Source: a virus | DNA length: 37,043 nucleotides | Virus record (IMG/VR): IMGVR_UViG_3300042305_000537 | Location: 1 to 37,043 of that record | Strand: one strand, 5' to 3' | In this document: in pieces, positions 26,167 through 36,209 of the stretch | How positions within the stretch are numbered: the first letter of the stretch is position 1 | How the letters are laid out: every line of letters starts with the position of its first letter | Notes under the pieces: model-generated | Told to the model about the DNA's origin: nothing | What the model saw: the letters and a program-made list of their open reading frames with translations, nothing else | Database searches by the model: none | Made by a program: the position numbers and the translations under genes

Positions 26167-26324
26167 CATTATACCAAGCATACGTAATTTTGAAGCATCA
26201 CGCCGAATGGCGGCAAGGCGAACATTCAGAAATGGTGAAACCTGAAAAATTAACTCAGGCGCTTAACGTAATCCTTAATGATTTACAAACCAAGCTAACA
26301 AAAGAAAGCTATGCCACAGTATGA
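26163..26324 (+). CDS. Small ORF (53 aa), hypothetical
   Basis: ATG 26163 overlaps the scaffold stop (ATGA) and the frame ends at TGA 26322-26324, overlapping the next gene by 14 bases. The product (MTLYQAYVILKHHAEWRQGE...) is helical and charged, ending LNDLQTKLTKESYATV. The tight junctions on both sides support translation. No function is recognised. Confidence 0.6.
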   Translation: MTLYQAYVILKHHAEWRQGEHSEMVKPEKLTQALNVILNDLQTKLTKESYATV

Positions 26325-26583
26325 AGGTTATAACGTTACCGCTTCGCAGCGCGAAGGCAAGAAATACAAAGCCGTAGATAATGAAGGTAACGAGATTCAT
26401 TTTGGCGCTTCGGGCTATCGGATTAACCCCGGCACGGATGCAGGTAATTCTTACTGCGCTCGTAGTAACGGCATCCCTTCGCCGAAAGGCTCTGCGAATT
26501 GGTGGGCGCGTCAACTTTGGAGCTGCGAGGGGCGACGTTCAGTAAGCGACAAACCTTTTTTTGGTAAAATCGAATTACCTTAG
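26311..26583 (+). CDS. Conserved small phage protein (90 aa, DUF5872-like)
   Basis: The product has YKAVDNEGNEIHFGASGYRI (19-38), then PGTDAGNSYCARSNGI and an Arg/Trp/Cys-rich end (ANWWARQLWSCEGRRS). The HFG-x-GY ... YCARS ... WSC pattern is one I associate with DUF5872-like proteins found in many phages and some large viruses; biochemical role not established. It starts at ATG 26311 and is followed by a terminator. Placement in the head region suggests a virion or packaging accessory role. Confidence 0.65.
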   Translation: MPQYEGYNVTASQREGKKYKAVDNEGNEIHFGASGYRINPGTDAGNSYCARSNGIPSPKGSANWWARQLWSCEGRRSVSDKPFFGKIELP

Positions 26584-27079: not shown

Positions 27080-27108
27080 TTTGCATATTCAAATAATTAC
27101 TATATTTG
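27080..27108 (+). promoter_or_regulatory. Promoter P5 of a small RNA
   Basis: TTTG (27080-27083) and TATATTTG (27101-27108) are separated by 17 bases. No coding frame follows; the transcript would run into the structured segment 27114-27202. Confidence 0.75.
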
Positions 27109-27113
27109 CAAAA

Positions 27114-27202
27114 GATAGTTAGGGGCTATCTAACTAAGCTCAGATATTCATTCTCGATATATCGCCCTTAAATAGACCCCCTACCTATTTAGGGGCTTTT
27201 TT
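27114..27202 (+). ncRNA. Candidate phage small RNA ending in an intrinsic terminator
   Basis: Downstream of P5, TAGTTAG (27116-27122) pairs with CTAACTA (27130-27136), with GATAG/CTATC (27114-27118/27126-27130) as an alternative. GATAT (27143-27147) pairs with ATATC (27159-27163). A 12-bp stem (27164-27175 with 27185-27196, one GU) followed by TTTTTT forms the terminator. There is no ORF. A transcript of about 90 nt with three hairpins is predicted; it could be a trans-acting sRNA or an attenuated leader for the RNA and capsid gene downstream. The two competing 5' pairings leave room for a switch. Confidence 0.6.
27164..27202 (+). terminator. Strong terminator of the small RNA
   Basis: GCCCTTAAATAG (27164-27175) pairs over 12 positions, including one G-U, with CTATTTAGGGGC (27185-27196); loop ACCCCCTAC; T-tract 27197-27202. 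Confidence 0.88.
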
Positions 27203-27215
27203 ATTGTCCCTAACA

Positions 27216-27524
27216 GGCTGATGAACCGACCAGTTCAGCCGTGAGCATAGGCGAGGAATCGCAATCAAAAGCAGTCGTTAAAGAACTTATAAACTTTGGT
27301 ATGCGTAGGTGCAATGCAAACGAGGGGGGCAACACCGACCAAGTGCAAGGGGCTAATAGCTCAAGTATACCGAAGGGATTTGTTGAAAATAGTTAACGTG
27401 AAAGAAAAGAGGAGACGAACGGTTAACAGCCTGATATATCGAAAACAGGAACACGGGCAATAAATCTTTTAAGTACGATTAAATTCGTTTAACTGCCTTG
27501 CACGGGAGAACCCCCTCGCTATGC
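27216..27524 (+). ncRNA. Large structured RNA upstream of the capsid gene
   Basis: No ORF of note lies in this segment, yet distant parts pair well. Helices: GGCT/AGCC with GAAC/GTTC (27216-27240); outer GCATAG/CTATGC (27245-27250/27519-27524); GCGA-GGAA-TCGC with a GNRA loop (27251-27262); CGAGGGGG/CCCCCTCG (27321-27328/27511-27518); nested GTGCAAGG/CCTTGCAC (27343-27350/27496-27503); GGCT/AGCT (27351-27354/27358-27361); GTTAAC/GTTAAC (27392-27397/27422-27427); CCTG/CAGG (27430-27433/27446-27449); TTAA..ACGA/TCGT..TTAA (27469-27492). The two 8-bp long-range helices are perfect. No own promoter is visible, so it would be expressed by read-through. It does not show tmRNA, RNase P or group I/II intron signatures that I know. 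Confidence 0.6.
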
Positions 27525-27547
27525 TTTGAAATTAAAATAACATTTCG

Positions 27548-27640
27548 TAAATTTACGGCGCTCAAATGACAAATTATTTTTAGGCTTGAATCTTTGCCGC
27601 CTATTAAGTGCAAAGACCAATTTTAAAACCTAAAAACAAA
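27548..27640 (+). promoter_or_regulatory. Structured capsid-gene leader
   Basis: TAAATTT (27548-27554), TTTTTAGG (27577-27584) and CCTAT (27600-27604, 41 bases before ATG) match the leader at 19794-19883 in order and spacing. TTTTTAGG pairs with CCTAAAAA (27629-27636) just before the start codon; CTTTGC (27592-27597) pairs with GCAAAG (27610-27615), leaving CCTATTAA in the loop. Probable translational control element of late genes. Confidence 0.6.
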
Positions 27641-28687
27641 ATGTCAATTTCTCGCATTTTATCCGAATGCCCGAACGTGCAAATGTCACTATCGGAGCTT
27701 TTCATTGAGGTAGGTCAGCGCGAACAGCTACCTTTTCTCGAGTTTCTTAATTCACCTGAAAACGTAAAATTAATCCGTCAAGAAGTTGCACCCGGTCGCG
27801 GTAAGCTGAAGACGGTTGAGGCGCGTTGGATTCAGCGCCTACCCGAAACGGAAGTTGAAGAGGGCGGAGATATCCTTACGTGTACTTCGACTAACACTTA
27901 CGGCGATTCGACCACTACCTACACGCTTGAAACAACCGACACGTACATAGCTTCACAGTTGATTAACGCTGCTGATATTGCTCGCCATTGTCAGGAAAAC
28001 AGCCGTTACGTATTGGAAAGTGTTATGCGTTTAATGGATGTTATCGACCGTAAGGTAGCAAGCGCCGCCGCTACTCAAGCCGTTTCGTCAATCGGTGCAT
28101 GGGGTACTGAGGTTTCAGGATACTACACCGTATCGGGCGATTGTTTACGCGTTGCAACCCGTCAATCGGGCGGTCAAGCATTGAACGAATTTGCTTTGGC
28201 TGACATCTTGCAAGCTACACGCATGGCTAATTACCCGGGCGCGCCTGTGGTATTCGGCGGTGCTGAGATGCAGCGTTATGCTAATGCTGTGCAAGCTGGT
28301 TGCTGCACGCAATTCGGTATCGACTTGTTAGCGATTTCGCAACAAAACGGTTTCGGATTCGCTTACGATGCACGTTTGGCAGCGGCTCAAGGTTCACAGC
28401 TAAAGAACTTAGCTACGACTGCGGGCGCGATGCAATGGTTATCGTTTAACATGGCAGAATGGAACGCGGGTATTACACCAGTAGCGGGTAGCAATTATTC
28501 TAAGACTATTGCTTTCACACCAGCTGGAGTTCCTGTTGACCTAACCATGAAGGACGATTGCGGTAACTTATCTATCGTTTTGACGCACACTGGTAAACTC
28601 GTAACATTGCCGACCGACATTTACGAGGCTGGCGATAAATACGCAGGCGTTAACTATGTTAACTGCATTGAAATCGTAAACCCGTAG
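27641..28687 (+). CDS. Major capsid protein
   Basis: I start at ATG 27641, preceded by AACCTAAAAACAAA; the in-frame GTG at 27608 would include the leader helix. The 348-residue protein is of capsid size, starts MSISRILSECPNVQMSLSEL, and has a central domain with Ala-rich helices (DRKVASAAATQAVSSIG, LADILQATRMANYPG) and a C-terminal TKIAFTP-like strand region ending IVNP. Position after scaffold and portal supports an HK97-type coat protein; I infer rather than recognise the family. It ends on AAACCCG directly before TAG, see the frameshift feature. Its dedicated leader suggests strong, controlled expression. Confidence 0.75.
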   Translation: MSISRILSECPNVQMSLSELFIEVGQREQLPFLEFLNSPENVKLIRQEVAPGRGKLKTVEARWIQRLPETEVEEGGDILTCTSTNTYGDSTTTYTLETTDTYIASQLINAADIARHCQENSRYVLESVMRLMDVIDRKVASAAATQAVSSIGAWGTEVSGYYTVSGDCLRVATRQSGGQALNEFALADILQATRMANYPGAPVVFGGAEMQRYANAVQAGCCTQFGIDLLAISQQNGFGFAYDARLAAAQGSQLKNLATTAGAMQWLSFNMAEWNAGITPVAGSNYSKTIAFTPAGVPVDLTMKDDCGNLSIVLTHTGKLVTLPTDIYEAGDKYAGVNYVNCIEIVNP

Positions 28688-35642: not shown

Positions 35643-36209
35643 GTGTCAACGGTATTCATACTCGAAAACTCATTAGATTTGTTTTACGTGGTAACCGATA
35701 CCGACGGCACAATCGTAAGCACTAACGAATTATTTAAGCATTACGCGAGCCATATTAAGCCAAAAAACATCGTCGACATAGTTAGCAGCCCCGAGGATAA
35801 AGAAACGCTGATACAAGCCGTTAAAAAGGCAAAAGATAAGCAACCCGAACCCGCCCGAGTTTACGCCCGCACGAAACAAAAAAACTTATCTGAGCGCTTT
35901 AACGTTTGGAATATTTATAGCATAATGGGCGCTGTGCATTTTATCGGGTTTCAACTGGTAGACGTTACGAGCATAAGCGCACACGAACACGAACGCCAAC
36001 GAGTATTACTCGAGGAGTTTAGATTTATGCTTTCGCATGAATTACGCCAGCCGTTAACGTCGGTTAGTGGTTTAGTTCGGTTATTAATTACAAACCGTGC
36101 GCTATCCGATACCGAGCGCGGCGAACTTTTGCAAATGTTAGAGCAATCGGTCGTAAATTTGGACGAAGCCGTTAAGGTTTTAGTCAAAAAAGCAACGCGC
36201 CAAATATGA
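35643..36209 (+). CDS. PAS-HisKA protein (sensor-kinase fragment without ATPase domain)
   Basis: The 188-residue product starts at GTG 35643. Residues about 9-108 form a PAS domain (FYVVTDTDGTIVSTNELFKH; IYSIMGAVHFIGFQLVDVTS), followed by a HisKA dimerisation helix-pair with the H-box LSHELRQPLTSVSGL (130-144), phosphoacceptor H132. It then ends after the second helix (ELLQMLEQSVVNLDEAVKVL), with no HATPase_c domain and no transmembrane segment. Its layout matches the front part of Bacteroidota hybrid sensor kinases. It could dimerise with, or take phosphate from, host kinases and redirect signalling. Its stop overlaps the next start as ATGA. The domain call is clear; the function is inferred. 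Confidence 0.8.
   Translation: MSTVFILENSLDLFYVVTDTDGTIVSTNELFKHYASHIKPKNIVDIVSSPEDKETLIQAVKKAKDKQPEPARVYARTKQKNLSERFNVWNIYSIMGAVHFIGFQLVDVTSISAHEHERQRVLLEEFRFMLSHELRQPLTSVSGLVRLLITNRALSDTERGELLQMLEQSVVNLDEAVKVLVKKATRQI

Follow-up and report, generated by a model that had tools for sequence, protein, structure and literature searches.

An RNA gene with a terminator-bearing leader and exchangeable alleles beside the putative capsid gene of Bacteroidota-type phages

The stretch of DNA analysed here (the window) comprises 37,043 nt of the IMG/VR record IMGVR_UViG_3300042305_000537, the genome of a Bacteroidota-type phage, and the element under study occupies positions 27216-27524. Judged by its sequence and that of its relatives, this element is a genuine, conserved RNA gene with a predicted promoter of its own and an intricate fold. 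The predicted unit reaches upstream to about 27080, some 100 nt beyond the start given in a preliminary description of this DNA, which had recognised the body of the unit but overlooked both its leader and the existence of three alleles at the locus. The conserved fold is accompanied by promoter and terminator motifs, by complementary loops in the leader and, in close relatives, by alternative cassettes that take its place on the opposite strand. The locus is probably an independently transcribed, terminator-gated and trans-acting phage RNA gene with exchangeable alleles.

The RNA unit and its surroundings

The slot that holds the element lies between a gene for a 90-amino-acid protein (26311-26583) and a gene that is called a capsid gene solely from gene order (Table 1); the product of the latter has no PHROG or Pfam hit, and its AlphaFold model (pLDDT 32) is uninformative on identity. 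The RNA body found in the window, termed type I, measures 319 nt, or about 410 nt with its leader. The predicted promoter of the putative capsid gene, whose -7 element reads TAAATTTG in the relatives L072, L061 and L082, directly follows the body, a placement that speaks against the capsid mRNA necessarily including the RNA. The 5′ untranslated region of the capsid gene (27556-27640) is itself conserved and structured-looking, as it is in many of the relatives L002-L081. A match to the DUF2815 RNA (RF03084) at 27582-27643 (26.3 bits, E 0.018) was rejected, being below the cut-off of 41.2 and outside the element. No tRNA genes were found in the window. Elsewhere in the window, a HisKA (histidine kinase phospho-acceptor) match with an E value of 1.9e-7 occurs in a phage protein encoded at 35643-36206, an odd setting for this domain.

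Table 1. Features of the RNA locus; positions refer to the window, those in the last row to the records named there.
Feature	Position	Strand	Remarks
Predicted Bacteroidota-type promoter, TTTG-N17-TATATTTG	27080-27108	+	Conserved upstream of carriers' leaders
Leader hairpin A, GATAG-TTAGGGG-CTATC	27114-27130	+	Alignment A3; stem kept in 12/12
Leader hairpin B, GATAT...ATATC	27143-27163	+	Alignment A3 and leader fold
Intrinsic-terminator-like hairpin C (11 bp) and T6	27165-27202	+	Predicted
Structured RNA body, type I	27206-27524	+	Conserved across the 12 records; two-sided changes at 16 pairs
P1 hairpin, GGCTGA/TCAGCC	27216-27240	+	Directly 3′ of terminator; invariant in 12/12
Outer 6-bp helix, GCATAG/CTATGC	27245-27250 / 27519-27524		Read from sequence
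GNRA hairpin, GCGA-GGAA-TCGC	27251-27262	+	GCGA 27251-27254, TCGC 27259-27262; 3/4 pairs covary
Pseudoknot, GGTG 27308-27311 with CACC 27333-27336	27308-27336	+	Paired in 12/12
First 8-bp helix, CGAGGGGG/CCCCCTCG	27321-27328 / 27511-27518	+	98.9% of cells paired
Second 8-bp helix, GTGCAAGG/CCTTGCAC	27343-27350 / 27496-27503	+	Closes multibranch domain
Predicted capsid-gene promoter, TTTG-N19-TAAATTTA	27525-27555	+	Read from sequence; starts right after RNA body
Downstream gene, major capsid by gene order	27641-28687	+	Follows portal and minor head genes
Type II/III RNAs with direct repeat	L002 2437-2766, L066 1963-2292, L055 2435-2764, L008 1732-2061	-	

Fold of the type I body

Homologues were gathered with the neighbouring capsid protein as query, which yielded 80 IMG/VR loci, in some of which blastn located the RNA; pattern scans of viral contigs added two type I records, giving 12 distinct sequences, namely the window and 11 IMG/VR relatives. 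In the resulting alignment (A2) of these few and closely related homologues, with 12 rows and 69 named pairs in 12 helices, standard pairs occupy 98.2% of the pair cells. At sixteen pairs both partners change with pairing preserved, compared with a mean of 4.2 after shuffling (0/500 shuffles as high), whereas slid controls give one or two two-sided pairs with 34-46% of cells paired. Because these 16 covarying pairs far exceed both shuffles and slid controls, the alignment shows that the type I fold is under selection, in support of the structure put forward in the preliminary description. Folding energy alone is weak support: a 336-nt stretch has a folding energy of -84.1 kcal/mol (z = -1.51), and 7/100 shuffles are equally stable. 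The lack of a convincing open reading frame, noted earlier, is borne out by the finding that no frame of at least 60 amino acids overlaps 27216-27524. A coding role of the body is rejected, since shorter frames are not conserved across the alignment and gaps of 1, 2 and 13 nt disrupt the frame.

All helices originally described can be read from the sequence at the positions first given for them, and they differ in what the homologues say about them. The GNRA-capped hairpin is the clearest case, its stem and loop being rewritten as GGCT-GAAA-AGCC in L072 and GCGG-GAAA-CCGC in L082. In every type I sequence its loop is GGAA or GAAA when read on the + strand, and the RNA is assigned to this strand because the GNRA loop is kept on it only. 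The proposed pseudoknot, which spans the 5′ strand of the first 8-bp helix, gains one covarying pair from the change of GGTG/CACC to GATG/CATC in L061, and the first 8-bp helix likewise has one compensatory pair (CAAGGGGG/CCCCCTTG in L025). The second 8-bp helix, present and conserved, is invariant and hence yields no covariation. Most compensatory changes fall in the helices that it encloses, which include GATTTGTTG/CAATAAATC, GTTAACGT/ACGgTTAAC, CCTG/CAGG and ACGA/TCGT. The invariance of P1 marks it as conserved, yet covariation cannot speak to this hairpin. The outer helix, also present in the window, lacks covariation, contains mismatches in L025 and L061, and is the weakest part of the predicted fold. 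No terminator is found at the 3′ end of the body, and transcription may therefore continue into the capsid gene.

Leader of the type I unit

The predicted promoter of the unit belongs to a motif with eight matches in the window against 2.1 expected, a number reached in 0/100 shuffles. The leader that follows has a folding z-score of -3.49 (0/200 shuffles as stable). In L061 the stem of hairpin A has become GATAG/TTGTC. For the leader of the window, the fold of lowest energy uses an alternative stem, TAGTTAG/CTAACTA, but this stem is not conserved. The loop of hairpin C, CCCCTA (27178-27183), is complementary to TAGGGG (27120-27125) in the loop of hairpin A, the two being separated by about 50 nt within the same molecule. 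Complementarity of 5-6 bp between these loops occurs in every type I record and is kept despite sequence change, as TGAGGG/CCCTCA in L005 and L082 and as GGGGGG/CCCCCC in L061. The type I loops are all G-rich, and swapping loop partners within type I alone gives a weak result (p 0.076). In nearly all leaders of types I-III, the 3′ strand of the terminator hairpin has a complement in the bases just after the T-run (27196-27215 in the window, and at the same place in the cassettes described below), which could permit refolding into an alternative form once read-through has occurred.

Alternative cassettes in the same slot

The slot between the 90-amino-acid gene and the capsid gene was read in each capsid relative, most of which lack type I. 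Two further cassettes, types II (nine records) and III (seven records), occupy it on the opposite strand. They follow the same plan as type I, with promoter, hairpins A and B, terminator, T-run and folded RNA, and in their leaders, too, the terminator loop matches loop A. Across these two types, nine distinct loop pairs each fit their own partner over 6-7 bp, whereas swapped partners average 3.7 bp and 0/20,000 permutations reach the observed total. Among the few and related sequences available for each type, 14/88 predicted pairs of the type II alignment and 12/125 of the type III alignment are compensatory, leader included. The predicted fold of one leader (L002) uses the loop pairing in place of the terminator stem. 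The loop CGAGCGG precedes a type II body in L054 and a type III body in L062 and L066, which suggests that leaders and bodies can recombine.

The bodies of the other types bear no detectable sequence relation to the type I core, and a covariance model of that core matched neither types II and III nor 46 records of relatives; equal function of the three RNAs is thus an assumption. Types II and III carry a direct repeat of 10-12 nt, with one copy within the RNA and the other immediately following it; both copies change jointly between relatives (in type III, GCTATAC versus GCTATTAG). Type I has neither such a repeat nor an endonuclease gene. Apart from the known members, the T-run motif of types II and III picked out only unrelated terminators when used in a scan.

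Distribution and exchange

In a nucleotide tree of the capsid gene with 76 rows, the clade of the window comprises 25 members and its sister group 51. Exactly one cassette is carried by 24/25 members of the window's clade (10 type I, 7 type II and 7 type III); the sole exception, L012, has none, which makes the RNA dispensable in that phage at least. No cassette was found in the slot of any of the 51 members of the sister clade. Cassette types switch repeatedly within the clade, with at least four to five label changes per type on well-supported branches, and the nearest neighbours of the window by capsid carry type III. No second copy and no cassette outside the slot was found when whole records were searched for types II and III and with the type I covariance model, some of the records being fragments. 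A leader scan of nine records of 34-38 kb found one leader per carrier genome and none in six sister-clade genomes or in that of L012. For most carriers, RNA identity is 0.86-0.93 and third-codon identity of the capsid gene in the same pairs 0.52-0.66, a difference that is consistent with selection on the RNA or its recent exchange. Neither blastn of type I against phages and plasmids nor blastn of types II and III or tblastn of the capsid protein against phages returned a match; a pattern scan of genome contigs gave two matches, both judged to be chance.

Other occupants of the slot across the relatives include genes for DNA methylases (N6/N4), a GNAT acetyltransferase, Mom and GIY-YIG proteins, such accessory genes being seen in L066, L002/L011, L037 and L050. 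These occupants fit an accessory slot.

Relation to known RNA classes

The preliminary description had called the element a large structured RNA of unknown class, an assessment that agrees with the covariation and with the absence of any Rfam match of type I at gathering or permissive thresholds; among types I-III, the same searches produced a credible relation for type III only. A 15-bit match to isrK (RF01394) over the terminator of the upstream gene is due to chance and reflects no sequence relation. The likeness to GOLLD and ROOL that was first suggested is not supported, as their covariance models found no match in a search of the whole window at gathering threshold or among the permissive matches, and type I is smaller. 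GOLLD and ROOL are likewise ornate phage RNAs with loop-loop contacts and no assigned function. In contrast to type I, they are larger, many GOLLD members exceeding 800 nt, and often lie near tRNA islands (PMC12286853), whereas the window is free of tRNA genes. On the best reading, type I is not a member of GOLLD or ROOL, a capsid 5′ untranslated region or an intron.

Type III matches the Betaproteobacteria-1 RNA (RF02932) end to end with 38.3 bits (E 2e-4; cut-off 49.4) and the HOLDH RNA (RF02997) with 22.6 bits over positions 7-61 of 391 (E 0.0013; cut-off 319.4), both classed in Rfam as 'Gene; sRNA'. At a loosened threshold, the RF02932-type model also matches many control genomes. A relation of type III to the Betaproteobacteria-1 RNA is likely but unproven, and is favoured because of motifs shared in the alignment, GGUCGGG..ACGGCAGC and CUGUGGG. 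Type I does not share this resemblance: five of its records (G000, G046, G047, G048 and G017) gave no match to the Betaproteobacteria-1 and HOLDH models at E<=10.

Proposed mechanism and alternatives

In the proposed mechanism, transcription would start near 27110 from the predicted promoter of the unit, and most transcripts would probably stop at the terminator near 27202 to give an RNA of about 90 nt, the first loop of which would pair with the terminator loop. Read-through would add the 319-nt folded body to yield a non-coding RNA of roughly 410 nt that would act in trans. A comparable arrangement is known for IsrK of prophage Gifsy-1, which occurs in a short terminated form and in a longer form produced by read-through of the same terminator (PMC4825925). 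The long form of IsrK is an anti-repressor mRNA, whereas the read-through product proposed for type I is a folded non-coding RNA. Type I is one of three alleles that alternate as cassettes in one accessory slot beside the putative capsid gene; the alleles are swapped among close relatives, can lie on either strand, and occur once per phage in nearly all clade members. This swapping may reflect competition between phages or with host defences. As to the biological role, RNA-based exclusion or counter-defence is a guess. Compatibility between phages or counter-defence against the host would fit such swapping. A more specific idea, of rather low probability, is that exchangeable, strand-independent cassettes, each joining a self-complementary, terminator-bearing leader with diversifying loops to one of several unrelated ornate RNAs, make up a new kind of phage locus that serves compatibility or counter-defence by RNA alone.

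Small phage RNAs with sequence-specific pairing, such as the CI RNA of satellite P4, invite comparison with immunity systems. Precedent for immunity or exclusion is given by c4 RNA, which underlies the heteroimmunity of P1 and P7 through loop-based, sequence-specific pairing (PMC12197685). By analogy, the short RNA would recognise a matching loop on transcripts of related phages, and the alleles would be compatibility groups. The single-copy nature of the locus, the horizontal exchange of its alternative alleles, a pairing specificity that diversifies yet stays self-matched, and the leader terminator would all suit such a function. However, c4 and CI RNAs target a coding transcript, whereas the complementary loop of type I sits in the same leader, so that both pairing partners are in one RNA; the CGAGCGG loop pair, moreover, is shared by type II and type III bodies, and the locus adjoins late genes. 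No lysogeny genes were found in the window, and no integrase or repressor Pfam match among the window proteins scanned, many of which have no match at all. The missing integrase further weakens the immunity reading, which is considered unlikely.

A cis-acting 5′ leader, in which the RNA would be part of the capsid mRNA and regulate how that mRNA is transcribed or translated, attenuation being one example, would account for the location of type I, which immediately precedes the capsid gene in the same orientation, for its lack of a 3′ terminator and for the attenuator-like terminator that precedes the body. The strand change of types II and III, which are transcribed away from the capsid gene, argues strongly against this function; with a separate predicted capsid promoter right after the body, and 51 relatives and L012 that manage with no cassette in the slot, it is quite unlikely.

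Conserved loop contacts of GOLLD, ROOL and OLE proved to be intermolecular (PMC12286853), and the loops described here could by analogy join RNA molecules into an RNA-only ring or cage. The large, ornate type I RNA with its GNRA loop, pseudoknot and conserved loop-loop complementarity is in keeping with such a multimer, as is the resemblance of type III to the catalogued Betaproteobacteria-1 and, weakly, HOLDH RNAs. Nevertheless, intramolecular pairing is simpler for loops so close together, a terminator separates leader from body, and type I is smaller than these RNAs and matches none of their models, so that multimer formation appears improbable.

A mobile ribozyme or intron-like element, which the GIY-YIG genes following type III in L002 and L011 and the jointly changing direct repeats of types II and III might bring to mind, is very improbable given that the models for group I, group II and HEARO found nothing under either gathering or permissive thresholds, that the cassettes interrupt no gene and are intergenic in all carriers, that they occur once per genome in one slot only, and that type I has no endonuclease gene or repeat.

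Significance

We know of no function for large phage RNAs such as GOLLD and ROOL, conserved as they are. At the present locus, three folds, one of which resembles a catalogued class, replace each other under a common leader, and the covarying loop-loop contact across the terminator suggests a regulated switch that is testable. This allele set in otherwise very similar phages provides a natural comparison for testing the function of such RNAs.
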